Translations under genes and position numbers: made by a program
Part shown: positions 6,865-40,484 of the stretch, piece by piece
Numbering within the stretch: the stretch's first letter is position 1
Layout of the letters: each line of letters opens with the position of its first letter
Notes under the pieces: generated by a model
What the model was told of the DNA's origin: nothing
Database searches by the model: none
The model's input: only the letters and a program-made list of their open reading frames with translations
NCBI GenBank assembly: GCA_003278765.1
Contig: QCDK01000003.1
Coordinates: forward strand, 62,001 to 126,000
Reading direction: 5' to 3'
DNA from: Prochlorococcus sp. AG-355-G23
Lineage (GTDB): Bacteria; Cyanobacteriota; Cyanobacteriia; PCC-6307; Cyanobiaceae
Length of the DNA: 64,000 nucleotides

Positions 6865-7872
6865 TTATTTACTTGTCAATTGAAATAGTGATATTGCTGC
6901 CGCCACAGAAGCATTTAAACTTGATGTCTTACCTTTGAGAGGAATGCTTAATAGATAATCACATTTCTTTTGAGTAATCAAAGAAATACCTTTATCTTCA
7001 GAGCCGACTATAACTACCAAGGGTGCTTTTTCAAGAAAATTTGAAATAGATAATTGACCATCTCCAGATAAGCCAACAACAAGAAAGCCATTTTTCTTAA
7101 GCTCATCAAGTGCTCTATTTAAGTTGACAACTCTACTAACATTCAAGTGCTCTAAAGCTCCTGCAGCTACCTTAGCGACTGTTCCCGTCAATCCAGCGGA
7201 TCTTCTCTGAGGGATAATGATGCCTTTGCAATCAAATGCTTCCGCTGATCTAATAATCGCACCAACATTATGTGGATCAGTTATGCCGTCTAATGCTAGT
7301 ATTATTGGATTTGCACAATTGTGTTTAGAAAAATTTATTAATTGTTCTAGGGGTATTGTTTTAGAGCATGCCAACTGTAATGCTACGCCCTGATGTGAAG
7401 CACCATAAGTTAATTGTGAAAGCCTGTTCCAAGATACTTCTTCAATTAGGACTCCTCTTGATTTAATGTCCTTAAGCAAAATATAGAATTTGTCTGAAGA
7501 AAAGATTTCCGAAGTACACCAAATCCTATTAATCGCTCTTTCACTAATAAGAGTCTCATAAACGGAATGTTTACCCCATATCCAATCATCAAAATTTCTC
7601 TTGTTATTAAAAACTTGATGAGATTCAGAATTATTATTAGGAAATTCTGTATTAGGTTTAGATATTGGCTTTCTTCTTTTTGAAGATGAAAATTTATGAT
7701 ATTTTTCATTTTTATTTAAATTTTCAACATTTTTATTTTTTGCAGATTTGTTCAAAAATCTTTCATTTTTTTCTGAACGATTTGTATTTTTTAAGTAATA
7801 ACCATAATCTGAATTTTTTTGGCTATCTTTATTATTTTTTCCAGAAAAAATTTTTTTTGAAGAGTTTTTCAT
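6865..7872 (-). CDS. rlmB: SpoU/TrmH-family 23S rRNA 2'-O-ribose methyltransferase (RlmB-like)
   Basis: The C-terminal half (about residues 95-335) is a SPOUT methyltransferase. It has the substrate-binding L30e-like segment (WGKHSVYETL), the motif ITDPHNVGAIIRSAEAF, the SAM-binding knot VIVGSEDKGIS and the C-terminal IPLKGKTSSLNASVAAAI. The enzyme family methylates G2251 of 23S rRNA in E. coli. The first ~90 residues are a low-complexity Lys/Asn/Ser tail unusual for the bacterial enzyme but common in picocyanobacteria. Mini-RNase III sits four bases upstream, which suggests an rRNA-maturation operon. Confidence 0.9.
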   Translation of the reverse strand: MKNSSKKIFSGKNNKDSQKNSDYGYYLKNTNRSEKNERFLNKSAKNKNVENLNKNEKYHKFSSSKRRKPISKPNTEFPNNNSESHQVFNNKRNFDDWIWGKHSVYETLISERAINRIWCTSEIFSSDKFYILLKDIKSRGVLIEEVSWNRLSQLTYGASHQGVALQLACSKTIPLEQLINFSKHNCANPIILALDGITDPHNVGAIIRSAEAFDCKGIIIPQRRSAGLTGTVAKVAAGALEHLNVSRVVNLNRALDELKKNGFLVVGLSGDGQLSISNFLEKAPLVVIVGSEDKGISLITQKKCDYLLSIPLKGKTSSLNASVAAAISLFQLTSK

Positions 7873-7876
7873 AAGT

Positions 7877-8275
7877 TCAATTGATTTTTAATTCTAAATA
7901 TTCAAAAAGTGTTGATAATCTTTGAGGATCTTTTAAAAATAACCACCCAATGAGAGTTTCAAAACCTGTTGCTCTGGAGTATATGGTAGGGTCAGATGAC
8001 TTCGGATATTTCTTTGTTTTATTTCTAGCACGCCTAATTAGATCAATTTCCTTCGAATTTAATAAATGTTCAATTTGACTTAATGATTTTGATTGAGATT
8101 TTGCTTTTACTTCATTTACTACAGATAAATGAAGATCCTTTGATTTTAAGGGAAAATGAACATGTCTTAATCTTTGGTGAAGCTCCCACACCGAATCTCC
8201 AAGCCAAGCAAGTTGAATAACACCTATATCCTCGGGAGATCCATATGGAACCAAGTTTTGAATCCAATAATTCAA
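7877..8275 (-). CDS. mrnC: Mini-ribonuclease III (23S rRNA maturation)
   Basis: This is an RNase III catalytic domain without the dsRNA-binding domain, 132 aa. Visible motifs are LAWLGDSVWELHQR (catalytic Asp), RRARNKTKKYPKSS and YSRATGFETLIGWLFL (second acidic site). Family members process 23S rRNA termini in Bacillus; in cyanobacteria they act on 23S and intron RNA. The start is TTG at 8275, which overlaps the TGA stop of the upstream STAS gene (TTGA), indicating translational coupling. The neighbouring rRNA methyltransferase supports an RNA-processing role. Confidence 0.88.
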   Translation of the reverse strand: MNYWIQNLVPYGSPEDIGVIQLAWLGDSVWELHQRLRHVHFPLKSKDLHLSVVNEVKAKSQSKSLSQIEHLLNSKEIDLIRRARNKTKKYPKSSDPTIYSRATGFETLIGWLFLKDPQRLSTLFEYLELKIN

Positions 8276-34841: not shown

Positions 34842-35036
34842 ATGGCGCTACCAGAACTGATTTATGCTCCTATAGATGGCGGAACAATACATAGATATGA
34901 AATTAGTGGTGGCAAGAGAAAATTTTTAAGATTTATAGGCTGTTATTTGGGTCAATGCAATTTCCACAAAAATATTGATGATGCTATTGCTTCCATAAAA
35001 AATTTGAAGGAATCACAAAAGATACAAAAAACATGA
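34842..35036 (+). CDS. Hypothetical protein (64 aa)
   Basis: A 64-aa soluble basic protein: MALPELIYAPIDGGTIHRYE, then ISGGKRKFLRFIGCYLGQCN with two Cys six residues apart, then a helix IDDAIASIKNLKESQKIQKT. It reads like a compact beta-rich domain with a terminal helix. Family unknown. It is followed after 158 bases by the Rieske oxygenase gene. Confidence 0.55.
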   Translation: MALPELIYAPIDGGTIHRYEISGGKRKFLRFIGCYLGQCNFHKNIDDAIASIKNLKESQKIQKT

Positions 35037-35194: not shown

Positions 35195-36517
35195 ATGGAA
35201 AACAGACAAATTAATTTTTTTAAATCAAAAGACTTTAATACCGTTCTTAAGCCATTTAAAAAAGGAACGGTAGTAAAAATTGACTCGTTTGATATTAGAG
35301 AAAATCAAAAAGAATTAAATATAGGTTTATTTGGTTGGTATGCAATTTGTCCCTCTAAAGAGCTAAAAAAAAATAAGCTATATTATTTTTCACTCTATGA
35401 TGAGCCTCTCGTTCTTTATAGAGATGAAAATAAAAAAGTTAGGTGTATTAAAAATATTTGTCCACATAGAGGAGCCTCCTTTTTGGGAGGGACATTATCA
35501 GATGGGGTAATAACCTGCCCATATCATGGAGCTAAGTTTTCATCTGGAGGAAGTTGCCAAAATCTCAACAGAATTACATGTCGCCATATAGTCGATAATA
35601 ATTACGATAACTACGCCAAAAGAATTCATTTATCTCAATACAAAACTTCAGAAAAAAATGGATATATTTTTGTACATTTTTCTAAAAAATCTGAAACTGA
35701 TTTAAATAATATAAGTGAAGATACACCTATAACTAACTACGAATTATATGAAAATGGGTTTTCACATAAGGATTATGTCTTTGAGGAGGTATTAGTTGAC
35801 TTCAAATGCGATTGGTCAAGGATTATTGAAAATCATCTAGATATCCTTCATATCTTTTGGGTTCATGGCGATACAATCCCTGATAAAGATGTTAATAAAA
35901 ACGTACTTGTTAGTTTTAACCAGAAAATTAATATTAATCCCAAATACATTGAAAGTATTTATTACTACAAGAATGACCCTACAAAAGAATTTATTCGGAT
36001 AAAATACATACCTCCAGGAAGGATATTAATCTACAAAGGCGATCCTTCCGCATCAAGATATTTACAAGTTTTAGATCATATTCCTCTAGGAAACAACAAA
36101 GCAAGGGTAATAGTGAGACACTATAGGAAATTCCTACAAAATAAACTACTTAATAACCTCTTATTATTTAAAGAGACTCAAAGAAAGATTTTTTATAAGA
36201 TATTCGATGAGGATTATATGATTTTAAAAACACAAACATATAATCACGATATGGGATTTATAAGTAAGGATGAAATAAAATTATTAGGAGAAGATAGGAT
36301 AATAAATTATTTTTGGAAGTGGTACAAGAAGTCTGAAGATAAAGATGAACCATGGAAAAATACTAAAAAGGCCCAAAATCATGATGTATATGAAAAAGTG
36401 ATATTGAAATATCCACCTGAGATAAAGAAGTTAGAAATTGAAAATAATCTTGATATTATTAGAAAAACATTTGTAAGATTTGCTGCTCCGCTTATATTTT
36501 TTATGTTAATAATATAA
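35195..36517 (+). CDS. Rieske non-heme iron oxygenase, PAO/CAO-like
   Basis: A 440-aa oxygenase alpha-subunit-like protein. The Rieske [2Fe-2S] motif is CPHRGASF...CPYHGAKF (near residues 92-115). The mononuclear iron site is ENHLDILHIFWVHGD (near residues 210-225), with the N-x2-D-x2-H-x4-H pattern of the plant/cyanobacterial pheophorbide a oxygenase, chlorophyllide a oxygenase and Tic55 group. The C-terminus (FVRFAAPLIFFMLII) is one hydrophobic anchor. Substrate is unknown; a tetrapyrrole is a reasonable guess. A 33-aa membrane peptide and an ABC ATPase follow in a tight operon. Codon use is very AT-rich. Confidence 0.8.
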   Translation: MENRQINFFKSKDFNTVLKPFKKGTVVKIDSFDIRENQKELNIGLFGWYAICPSKELKKNKLYYFSLYDEPLVLYRDENKKVRCIKNICPHRGASFLGGTLSDGVITCPYHGAKFSSGGSCQNLNRITCRHIVDNNYDNYAKRIHLSQYKTSEKNGYIFVHFSKKSETDLNNISEDTPITNYELYENGFSHKDYVFEEVLVDFKCDWSRIIENHLDILHIFWVHGDTIPDKDVNKNVLVSFNQKININPKYIESIYYYKNDPTKEFIRIKYIPPGRILIYKGDPSASRYLQVLDHIPLGNNKARVIVRHYRKFLQNKLLNNLLLFKETQRKIFYKIFDEDYMILKTQTYNHDMGFISKDEIKLLGEDRIINYFWKWYKKSEDKDEPWKNTKKAQNHDVYEKVILKYPPEIKKLEIENNLDIIRKTFVRFAAPLIFFMLII

Positions 36518-36520
36518 TTT

Positions 36521-36622
36521 ATGAAGAAAGTAAATAGACCTTCATGGTTGAATTGGCTTTATCTCTTTATATTTATTTTAAGCTCTATTCAATTGATTAT
36601 ATTTTGGAGTAATAAGTTTTAG
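36521..36622 (+). CDS. Tiny membrane peptide (33 aa) inside the Rieske/ABC operon
   Basis: ATG (36521) is three bases after the Rieske TAA, and its TAG (36620-36622) overlaps the GTG start of the ABC ATPase by one base. The product begins MKKVNRPSWLNWLYLFIFIL and ends SSIQLIIFWSNKF, a single transmembrane helix with aromatic borders. The exact fit between two genes is the main evidence that it is translated. Confidence 0.55.
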   Translation: MKKVNRPSWLNWLYLFIFILSSIQLIIFWSNKF

Positions 36623-37347
36623 TGTTAAATAAATTTTGGTTTGACGCAAAAAATATAAATTGTTTTAAAAATGGCTTTAAAGTAATTAAAGATTTAAATT
36701 TAAAGATAGGTTATTCAGAAAATGTAATATTAATTGGACCAAATGGTTCAGGTAAATCATCCTTAATTGAAATAATTAATAGAAACATATACCCAGTAGT
36801 AGCTAATGAATCGAAACTGAAGATATTTGACAAAGAACTTATAAATTTGTGGGAACTAAGAAATAAAATAAGTACCGTAAATAATGATATAAAAAAAAGA
36901 ATAAATCCAAATTTACAAGTTTTTGATTTAATATTAAGTGGATTATATGGAAGATATTGTTACGTACAAAATAAATCTGAAAGAGATACTTATAAGGTGG
37001 AAAAAATCATCAAAAAAATGAATATTTCTAATTTATCCAAAAAGAAATTTTCATATTTATCAGATGGAGAAAAACAAATTTCTCTCATTGCAAGGGCATT
37101 AATCAAAAAACCGAAAATCTTAATCCTAGATGAACCAATTGCAAATTTAGATTATAAATCAAAATATTTTGTAATCGATAAGGTGAATGAATTATCAAAA
37201 TTAAACACTAAAATTTTATGTGTCACGCATGATATTTCAACGATTACAAAAATTTATGACCGGGTCATAATGCTAAAAGATGGCAAGATAATCGCTGATG
37301 GAGATCAAAATAAGGTTATAAATAGTGAAAATCTTAATAAGTTATAA
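36622..37347 (+). CDS. Solitary ABC ATPase (YlmA/PhrA-like)
   Basis: A 241-aa ATP-binding protein with Walker A GPNGSGKSSLIEII, a signature FSYLSDGEKQISLIARALI (SDGE instead of SGGQ), Walker B ILILDEPIANLDYKS and His switch CVTHDIST. The LWELRNKISTVNNDI and LQVFDLILSGLYG segments resemble stand-alone YlmA/ModF-type ATPases. GTG start, coupled to the 33-aa peptide. No permease is adjacent apart from that peptide. Confidence 0.8.
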   Translation: MLNKFWFDAKNINCFKNGFKVIKDLNLKIGYSENVILIGPNGSGKSSLIEIINRNIYPVVANESKLKIFDKELINLWELRNKISTVNNDIKKRINPNLQVFDLILSGLYGRYCYVQNKSERDTYKVEKIIKKMNISNLSKKKFSYLSDGEKQISLIARALIKKPKILILDEPIANLDYKSKYFVIDKVNELSKLNTKILCVTHDISTITKIYDRVIMLKDGKIIADGDQNKVINSENLNKL

Positions 37348-37402: not shown

Positions 37403-37591
37403 CTAAATAACAATTATGAAAATCGCTATCGCAATAGCAAGAAATATTAATTTTTTACTTTTTAAAAATGAAGAGGATTTTTTTTTAAATGAGGAAGAAC
37501 CACATTTAGAGCACACAATCCTACCTCCTAAAGATCGATCTGAGACGAATGAAGAACTTCCACAATTAAAACAAACTCTATTTGCGCTCAT
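37403..37591 (-). CDS. Zinc-ribbon protein with C-terminal membrane anchor (62 aa)
   Basis: Two CxxC knuckles (RVCFNCGSSSF and RIVCSKCGSSSFKK) form a zinc ribbon at residues 7-32, followed by a Lys/Ser linker and a C-terminal hydrophobic helix (LIFLAIAIAIFIIVI). It is a tail-anchored zinc-ribbon peptide of unknown role. It converges on the ABC ATPase. Confidence 0.65.
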   Translation of the reverse strand: MSANRVCFNCGSSSFVSDRSLGGRIVCSKCGSSSFKKKSSSFLKSKKLIFLAIAIAIFIIVI

Positions 37592-38336: not shown

Positions 38337-38624
38337 ATGAAGGAATCACAATCACTCACAAACAATTTATTGATGGAAGTCTATTTTTTATCGAATAGGC
38401 TCAGAAATATCAAGCAATCCTACAAAACCACAGAAAATAAAGCATTAAAGGAAAGATTATTTAATGAAAACAATACTATTTTTAAAAGAGTTAATGAGAT
38501 TTATAAAATAGCTGAACTCTTAAATAAAAATAATGAGAAAATCAACTTTTCAAATTTACTTTATGAAATAACTAAAAGGACATTGAATGAAAATAAATTT
38601 GAAAGTAATTTATTTTTTCTTTAA
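38337..38624 (+). CDS. Hypothetical coiled-coil protein (95 aa)
   Basis: A 95-aa helical protein rich in Lys, Asn and Glu: LMEVYFLSNRLRNIKQSYKT, NKALKERLFNENNTIFKRVN, EIYKIAELLNKNNEKINF. It begins three bases after the Crp-type regulator and is presumably cotranscribed. Its last 15 bases overlap the end of the convergent ferritin gene. Function unknown. Confidence 0.65.
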   Translation: MKESQSLTNNLLMEVYFLSNRLRNIKQSYKTTENKALKERLFNENNTIFKRVNEIYKIAELLNKNNEKINFSNLLYEITKRTLNENKFESNLFFL

Positions 38625-39164
38625 ATCACTATCAATTAATAAGATTGCCGAAGGTTGATTTGAAGCAAACTTTACCTTTCCCAGTATGTTGGCAAATTCA
38701 TCTTCTGATTGTGTTTGAGCCTCTATAATTGGATCTAAGAATACGTTAGTTCTTGTATCTGAAATTCTTTCTGATATGGAATAAAGTTGTTGTAGAGATG
38801 AAGTTAAATCAGCCTCCATATTAAATGAATAAGAAATGAGCTCCTCTATAGAATCCCACATTTGAACAGGTGCAGGAATTTCATCTAATTTTACGCTTTG
38901 TCCTCTTGCGATTAAATAATCTGCAAATTTCTGAGCATGTTCCATTTCACCTTGTGATTCACTTAGAAAATGAGAGGCAAATCCATTTAAATCACGTTCT
39001 TGAAACCATAGATAAATAGAAAAATATTGAACATTAGCATATCTTTCCATTGTAAGATGTTCAAAAATGTTATCTAACAAACTTTTGTCTATCGGTTGAG
39101 CAACAGCTCTTCCAGATGGACCAAAATTAACTAATTTTTTTGTTTTTAAGTTATTTTCATTCAT
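38610..39164 (-). CDS. Ferritin
   Basis: A 184-aa iron-storage protein of the ferritin-like four-helix bundle. Diiron ligands are visible: Glu in HLTMERYANVQYFSIYLWF, the E-x2-H pair in SQGEMEHAQKFADYLI, Glu in NMEADLTSSLQQLY and the C-terminal QTQSEDEFANIL. A Fur-like site lies about 85 bases upstream. It starts at ATG 39164. It forms an iron-related block with the Fur-box regulator and the Fe-type ATPase. Confidence 0.92.
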   Translation of the reverse strand: MNENNLKTKKLVNFGPSGRAVAQPIDKSLLDNIFEHLTMERYANVQYFSIYLWFQERDLNGFASHFLSESQGEMEHAQKFADYLIARGQSVKLDEIPAPVQMWDSIEELISYSFNMEADLTSSLQQLYSISERISDTRTNVFLDPIIEAQTQSEDEFANILGKVKFASNQPSAILLIDSDLKKK

Positions 39165-39248
39165 TTTCGGATAAGTATCTAAGAGAATAATACAACATTT
39201 TGTATAAATTAGTAATTAATAAATACTTTAAATTAAATTAAATAATAT

Positions 39249-39267
39249 GATAATGAAAATCACTCGC
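39249..39267 (-). promoter_or_regulatory. Fur-like site upstream of ferritin
   Basis: GATAATGAAAATCACTCGC (plus strand) agrees with the Fur consensus at about 15 of 19 positions, strongest in the left half. It is 85 bases upstream of the ferritin ATG in an otherwise gene-free 240-base spacer. Ferritin being switched off by a metal regulator would be unusual, so the site might act indirectly. Confidence 0.4.
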
Positions 39268-39407
39268 AATACTATAAATGAATTTTGAGTACAGTTTTTC
39301 AGAACTGCTTTTAAGTAATAAAATATATAAAAATAAAAAAAAGAAATGTAAAAAGAAAAAATGCTCTAATTGGAAGGGAGGGAGGTGTAATTGCCTATAA
39401 ATAAATT

Positions 39408-40484
39408 TTATATATATACCTTATGTGCTCCAGGATATAAAAAATAATAACTATTTTTATTGATAAAAAGAGAACATTTATCACCATTATTTAAGAGATT
39501 ATTAATATCAGTTCTAACCCGCAATATGTTTCCATTAATAGTTACTTTATATATAAGAAATTCTCCAAGAAATTCTTTAGATATCACATTCGCATTTCCA
39601 GATTCTGATTTTTTAATTGAAATAAATTTAGGCGAAATTGACATACTTTTAATATTTGCAGTTTGTAAAACCCCTGAACTATTTATTTCACCTAAACAAG
39701 ACATATATGAATTACCATTTTTTTTGAGATTAATAATATTATTGCCCAAAATAAAACTACTAACAAATATGGTCTTGGGATTATTTAGAAGGTTAATTGG
39801 TGTATCAATTTGATGAATTGTTCCATCATTCATAACAGCGACTTTATCGCAAATTGACATCGCTTCTTCCGGATCATGTGTAACCATCAATCCGCTTGCA
39901 TTACAACCTTTTAGAATATTAGGGAGTTCACTTCTCAATTTTAGTTTGACATGCATATCAAGACTACAAAAAGGTTCATCTAATAAAATAAAATTTGTGC
40001 CTGGAGCAAGAGCTCTCGCAATTGCGAGTCTTTGTTTTTGGCCTCCAGACAATTCATGTGGGTACCTTCCAACAAAACTATCAAGACCGACAACATTTAA
40101 TAAATAATCAACTCTAGATCTATCTTTTTTGTTTTTCAAACCAAAAATTACATTCTCCAAAACAGTTAAGTGAGGGAAAAGTGCATAGTCTTGAAAAACC
40201 ATACCAATATTTCTTTTCTCAGGACTAAGAATTTTTTGCCTACTTGAAATTTCTTTATCATTTAGAGAAATCCTCCCTTTAGAGGGATATTCGAACCCCG
40301 CGATTAATCTTAAAAGAGTAGTTTTTCCGCAACCAGAAGGACCAAGCAACCCTAACAATTCGCCATTTTCAATTTTCAGGTTAATTTCGTTTAATATCCA
40401 ATTTGAACATTCTCGCTTATCATATTTATGATGCAAATCATCAATTATTAACGCATCATTTTTCACTAAGTTCTTCTTATTCAA
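39408..40484 (-). CDS. ABC transporter ATP-binding protein, Fe(III)/FbpC-FutC type
   Basis: A 358-aa ATPase with Walker A GPSGCGKTTLLRLIAG, MVFQDYALFPHLTVLENV (typical of the iron/polyamine importer group), signature LSGGQKQRLAIARALAP and Walker B FILLDEPFCSLD. The C-terminal ~90 residues are a TOBE-like regulatory domain. No permease or binding protein is adjacent. The iron assignment rests on the family resemblance and on the neighbouring ferritin and Fur boxes. It starts at ATG 40484, divergent from nth. Confidence 0.8.
   Translation of the reverse strand: MNKKNLVKNDALIIDDLHHKYDKRECSNWILNEINLKIENGELLGLLGPSGCGKTTLLRLIAGFEYPSKGRISLNDKEISSRQKILSPEKRNIGMVFQDYALFPHLTVLENVIFGLKNKKDRSRVDYLLNVVGLDSFVGRYPHELSGGQKQRLAIARALAPGTNFILLDEPFCSLDMHVKLKLRSELPNILKGCNASGLMVTHDPEEAMSICDKVAVMNDGTIHQIDTPINLLNNPKTIFVSSFILGNNIINLKKNGNSYMSCLGEINSSGVLQTANIKSMSISPKFISIKKSESGNANVISKEFLGEFLIYKVTINGNILRVRTDINNLLNNGDKCSLFINKNSYYFLYPGAHKVYI

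Follow-up and report, generated by a model that had tools for sequence, protein, structure and literature searches.

The chlorophyll(ide) a oxygenase of Prochlorococcus, or chlorophyll b synthase (PcCAO), has reportedly been in print since 2006, when the gene was tested by Satoh and Tanaka. In the available parts of two papers PcCao is described as a chlorophyll b synthase that is specific to Prochlorococcus (PMC3441193; PMC10284923). Canonical CAO, from plants, green algae and Prochlorothrix, displays a Rieske cluster together with a mononuclear iron (PMC9615114, PMC13297055, both available in part), and the ligands modelled for the iron of the Arabidopsis enzyme are N159/H165/H170/D285 (PMC13297055). 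PAO, Tic55 and canonical CAO are members of the PaO family (PF08417), and PAO-type Rieske oxygenases of this family are also present in cyanobacteria.

The sequence analyzed here is a 64,000-nucleotide stretch of Prochlorococcus sp. AG-355-G23 DNA (the window), from a genome of 1.35 Mb that is 84% complete. It displays a Rieske oxygenase gene, a gene for a small one-helix membrane peptide and an ABC ATPase gene in tandem (Table 1). The first two are separated by three bases and the last two overlap by one base (TAGTG); these junctions, and the coordinates of the three genes, are the same as those of the preliminary description of this DNA. Promoter-like sites at the locus number 15 where 22.9 are expected, and a terminator search of the locus found none. 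The three genes may share one transcript.

Table 1. Open reading frames of the locus and of the two flanking genes used as synteny controls (window positions)
Feature	Coordinates	Strand	Remarks
Rieske oxygenase	35195..36517	+	440 aa, ATG start, C-terminal hydrophobic segment; Pfam Rieske 1e-22
One-helix membrane peptide	36521..36622	+	33 aa, ATG start; motif RPxWxNW...
ABC ATPase	36622..37347	+	241 aa, GTG start; ABC_tran 6e-27
Zinc-ribbon protein, synteny control	37403..37591	-	62 aa; Zn_Ribbon_TF 2.9e-5, below cut-off
Upstream ORF, synteny control	34842..35036	+	64 aa

The reading that we consider likely is that the oxygenase is PcCAO and that the two genes downstream, for the peptide and the ATPase, are of older picocyanobacterial origin and would be its neighbors rather than its partners. 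In place of a supposed new export system, the locus would then record the history of gene order around an enzyme that is central to the most abundant phototroph of the ocean. About 1.3–3 kb downstream on the other strand (window positions 38610–40484) are a ferritin gene (5.5e-28) and the gene of another ABC ATPase; by eye, this second ATPase resembles that of an iron importer.

The oxygenase and its distribution

In addition to the Rieske domain, the oxygenase shows Pfam matches to VanA_C (E = 8e-8) and PaO (E = 5e-4; 20.6 bits, the curated cut-off being 27 bits). The preliminary description held that the Rieske and mononuclear iron motifs are intact and that the protein has a C-terminal anchor, and the alignment of orthologs agrees with it. 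All 17 aligned sequences share, without exception, the Rieske ligands C89/H91/C108/H111 and the candidate mononuclear iron ligands N213/H219/H224/D340, and each of them carries a hydrophobic stretch inside the last 60 residues. This stretch is helical in the AlphaFold2 model of the window protein (17 sequences, mean pLDDT 70, pTM 0.73) and is probably the membrane anchor of the oxygenase. The model displays a Rieske-oxygenase fold (best Foldseek match, E = 8e-16). Among dicamba, saxitoxin, carbazole and KshA-type oxygenases, which the VIA-align comparison covers, the best match is dicamba monooxygenase (3gb4; Z = 23.9, rmsd 3.7 over 305 residues).

Strong orthologs (E ≤ 1e-100) are present in 88 of 300 genomes of the family, all of 1.2–2.6 Mb in size; 28 of the 88 belong to the genus of the window and 60 to other genera. 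The remaining 212 genomes show matches of 4.7e-16 or weaker, i.e. generic Rieske proteins, or none. Within the genus of the window a full-length oxygenase is found in 51 of 61 genomes (its own included); the other ten comprise seven with no match, two with weak matches and one with a fragment. Most genomes of the genus that miss the gene are incomplete, and G029 misses it at 92% completeness; several small genomes of the family also do not have it, e.g. G162 (94% complete). With such exceptions, the oxygenase is present in Prochlorococcus, and its strong orthologs are confined to Prochlorococcus-type genomes and not found in Synechococcus. Similarly, among the best 80 of 239 relatives in named GTDB contigs, 78 are from Prochlorococcus, including the best ones (MIT 9314, MIT 9401 and MIT 9201 among them), and two are from "uncultured Synechococcaceae". 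In all 20 single-contig genomes with the oxygenase, it is the sole match to the oxygenase query. In viral contigs, scanned with an alignment of the oxygenase and one of the peptide, no relative could be confirmed, and phage records gave six distant Rieske matches and nothing closer.

In a few of the 88 genomes the strong match is a fragment or a frame in pieces (G374, G155 and G290). In G290 (71% complete; locus L153) the frame is in two pieces, by decay or by an assembly error. One MIT9313-like genome, G184 (85% complete, 1% contamination), has two oxygenase copies at separate places, L045 and L046. The L046 protein is about 51% identical to the copies of the same genus in L043, L044 and L052 and is either a second ancient copy or the result of a binning mix. 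The window genome itself has two Rieske domains, i.e. that of the oxygenase and that of a 179-aa open frame which, going by its size, would be the cytochrome b6f subunit. Some genomes of the same genus have a second Rieske oxygenase of 341 aa. At L292 (G038) it adjoins, by eye, a TauB-like ABC ATPase gene, an arrangement reminiscent of the Rieske gene next to a guanidine/TauABC-like cluster that is described in the available part of one paper (PMC10119275).

Relation to PAO, canonical CAO and PcCAO

The preliminary description termed the oxygenase PAO-like. This is correct in that it is a Rieske oxygenase with a C-terminal domain distantly similar to that of the cyanobacterial PAO-type proteins; membership in the PaO family did not hold. 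The window protein scores about 21 bits against PaO, below the cut-off, whereas Synechococcus-type PaO proteins score 85–95 bits (n = 6). The best ortholog listed (G131) scores 29.3 bits, and five further family genomes with the oxygenase gave no match to the PaO profile. In a tree of 57 proteins (a quick method, with long branches flagged), the 17 oxygenase sequences form one clade (support 99) with a long stem, separate from the PAO-type proteins and outside the PaO group. Because the match is below the cut-off and the clade lies outside the group, "PAO-like" is a loose term.

Canonical CAO is closer in one respect. The iron ligands of the window protein are at offsets 0, 6, 11 and 127, and those of Arabidopsis CAO are at 0, 6, 11 and 126 (PMC13297055, available in part), so that the two spacings are nearly identical. 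The difference is in the PaO score, which is under the cut-off in the window protein; the tree contains no labelled canonical CAO.

The Prochlorococcus-specific distribution is the same as that described for PcCAO (PMC3441193, PMC10284923, available in part), and closed genomes offer a single candidate. No difference between the two is known in these respects. The oxygenase is thus very probably PcCAO, i.e. an already known enzyme and not a new one. This assignment rests on distribution and elimination. The preliminary description counted it against its own reading if the oxygenase were to group with a characterized enzyme, and this is very likely the case, as far as the available descriptions of PcCAO go. 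It also placed the protein among tetrapyrrole-type oxygenases, and action on a tetrapyrrole is indeed very probable.

It is very improbable that the protein is instead some other Prochlorococcus-specific Rieske oxygenase, acting on another tetrapyrrole or in catabolism. The weak VanA_C match, the sub-threshold PaO match and the long stem outside the PaO group would fit such an enzyme. However, the organisms whose single-contig genomes have this one match (20 of 20) make chlorophyll b, published descriptions restrict PcCAO to Prochlorococcus (PMC3441193, PMC10284923, in the parts available) and the ligand spacing is CAO-like. In Prochlorococcus MED4, PMM0808 is listed as a Rieske iron-sulfur protein (PMC9606707, available in part); going by position, it may be the MED4 copy of the oxygenase. 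In the part of the literature that was searched, PMM0789–0794 are not mentioned, and among PMM0804–0808 only PMM0808 was found.

If the oxygenase is PcCAO, its reaction would follow that of CAO (PMC9615114, PMC13297055, both available in part). The Rieske cluster would take electrons from a reductase or ferredoxin and, in a trimer, pass them to the iron of the neighboring subunit. Two successive monooxygenations would then convert the C7 methyl of (divinyl-)chlorophyllide a to the formyl of chlorophyllide b. The divinyl form of the substrate is suggested by the pigments of Prochlorococcus, as far as the accessible sources describe them. None of 14 Prochlorococcus-type genomes has the BciB-type domain PF04432; this supports a divinyl substrate weakly, because four of six Synechococcus-type genomes do not have the domain either.

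Gene order in Prochlorococcus and its relatives

Gene order was compared at 35 loci from the genus of the window (its own included; termed HL) and at 61 loci in other genera (60 genomes), of which 56 loci are termed LL and five belong to the MIT9313-like genus (termed g55). In the HL loci the peptide gene is behind the oxygenase gene in 35 of 35 cases and the ATPase gene follows in 34 of 35; the remaining contig ends. Most HL loci have junctions of 1–3 bases, and such spacing fits an operon. From these counts, the gene order is not due to chance. The preliminary description would have failed had no relative conserved the order, but the search for the triplet in relatives shows that it is kept in 34 of 35 HL loci.

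The LL loci show the ATPase within 1300 nt in 54 of 56 cases. The peptide gene is behind the oxygenase gene at 31 of these loci and missing from that place at the other 25. As to the synteny controls, the opposite-strand zinc-ribbon gene keeps its place close to the oxygenase at 55 of 56 LL and 34 of 35 HL loci (limit 3000 nt), and the upstream gene in 35 of 56 LL and 32 of 35 HL loci (limit 600 nt). In the LL loci the linkage of the ATPase is therefore about that of the zinc ribbon, and it exceeds that of the upstream gene and of the peptide. The zinc ribbon is not a fully independent control because it is just beyond the ATPase. Since the oxygenase-ATPase linkage is no tighter than that of the zinc ribbon, plain synteny can explain the order. 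An ATPase linkage greater than that of the upstream gene is also expected from a functional tie.

Such a tie is the basis of a second explanation, in which the three genes form a working module. The peptide, recruited in Prochlorococcus, would serve PcCAO as a membrane adaptor, and the ATPase would aid assembly, iron-sulfur delivery or pigment handling. The full order in the HL loci, the short junctions in most of these and the presence of the peptide (31 of 56) and the ATPase (54 of 56) at LL loci from many genera are in accord with it. We nevertheless regard it as unlikely in view of the genomes in which the genes are found apart. Two complete genomes, G125 (99%) and G142 (100%), have the oxygenase without the ATPase and show no ATPase ortholog elsewhere; at their loci (L034 and L036) the zinc ribbon still follows the oxygenase. 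Both neighbors are missing from four of five g55 loci, and 25 of 56 LL loci do not have the peptide there. In addition, both neighbors are frequent in genomes that have no oxygenase. The three genes therefore do not regularly co-occur, and, going by genome content, the oxygenase would not need the ATPase, at least, in every genome in which it works, and neither neighbor would be tied to it.

The g55 loci show where the genes are located when separate. At L043, and by eye at L044, L045 and L052, the oxygenase gene precedes a transcription-repair-coupling-factor gene; at the fifth locus, L046, it is separated by 1.1 kb from an ATPase gene that is read divergently. The peptide gene of this genus is about 0.7 kb from a flavodoxin gene (L164), and the ATPase gene is beside the zinc ribbon (L163). 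In the seven Synechococcus-type genomes whose coordinates were compared (G102, G107, G164, G217, G262, G296 and G304) the peptide and ATPase genes are more than 100 kb apart or on different contigs. The surroundings of seven ATPase and six peptide genes were read in relatives. Because the two are separate in these relatives, the triplet is most likely a secondary assembly, which is tightest in HL. Judging from gene order, the peptide and ATPase genes would have come to be downstream of the oxygenase in an ancestor shared by most Prochlorococcus; genome compaction would then have packed the three together.

The third explanation is that of the preliminary description, which proposed that the three gene products act in export or as a membrane complex; here the ATPase and the peptide would move an oxidized pigment product of the oxygenase. 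The gene order and the presence of an ABC ATPase are compatible with it, yet we find it scarcely credible. The peptide and the ATPase are found, separately, without the oxygenase, which in turn occurs without the ATPase (G125 and G142) or without both (four of five g55 loci), a phyletic pattern in which no gene of the three requires the others. To our knowledge, ABC permeases are larger than one 33-aa helix, and the peptide would be too small to serve as one. Further, the likely product is a pigment that is retained in the cell (PMC3441193, PMC13297055, both available in part).

Eleven of the 56 LL loci have a flavodoxin gene at a distance of 340–470 nt from the oxygenase (L036, L037, L108, L113, L115, L117, L118, L120, L125, L143 and L144; limit 1 kb, Pfam on L037). 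It could encode an iron-sparing electron donor; in g55, however, the flavodoxin is near the peptide and apart from the oxygenase.

The membrane peptide and the ABC ATPase

The tiny membrane peptide noticed in the window belongs to a conserved one-helix family of 33–37 aa. Across 15 sequences, ten positions do not vary (R, P, W, N, W, L, F, S, L, W). Relatives summed against the window, in comparisons that are not independent, show 104 synonymous and 34 non-synonymous substitutions over about 17.5 and 81.5 sites, respectively. This indicates a real gene under purifying selection.

In one draw of genomes the peptide was found in 16 of 16 of the family and in none of 130 other cyanobacteria. A peptide profile (E ≤ 0.05) matches 261 of 300 family genomes, with four of the listed matches being weak (E = 0.007–0.03). 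Since no more than 88 of these 261 can have a strong oxygenase match, the peptide is also present in 173 or more of the 212 genomes that do not have one. The peptide has no match in NCBIfam, and its matches in Pfam and PDB are at chance level. No description of the peptide or of the gene order was found in the part of the literature that was searched. The peptide family therefore appears to be the undescribed part of the locus, a picocyanobacterial membrane microprotein. As a by-product, the analysis yields a near-universal picocyanobacterial one-helix microprotein for which the libraries searched hold no family model. The peptide might be a small and so far unnoticed component, general to picocyanobacteria, of a membrane complex, photosynthetic or otherwise, and might in most Prochlorococcus have become the membrane adaptor of PcCAO, although we consider this quite unlikely.

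The ATPase is probably a lone ABC ATPase of the YlmA/ModF type. Among single-domain PDB chains its best matches are 4hzi and 2ihy, which we take to be of this type and which, like the window protein, have a single ATPase domain; nearly the whole profile is covered. The top PDB chains overall are long exporters. None of the 25 NCBIfam models listed is close to its cut-off. The claim of an ATPase without a permease is correct for the immediate neighborhood: no ABC permease gene is beside it in the window and, by eye, none of its own is present at the seven loci of relatives. ATPase orthologs (E ≤ 1e-75) are present in 15 of 21 Synechococcus-type and four of five g55 genomes searched.

The window ATPase is about 21 aa shorter than the 33 relatives of the same genus that were measured (241 vs 261–275 aa). 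Its early end is a feature of the strain or a sequencing error. In a Synechococcus-type locus (L161, positions 7527–8234), a ZIP-like metal transporter (2.5e-7, below the cut-off) is located about 35 nt past the lone ATPase gene.
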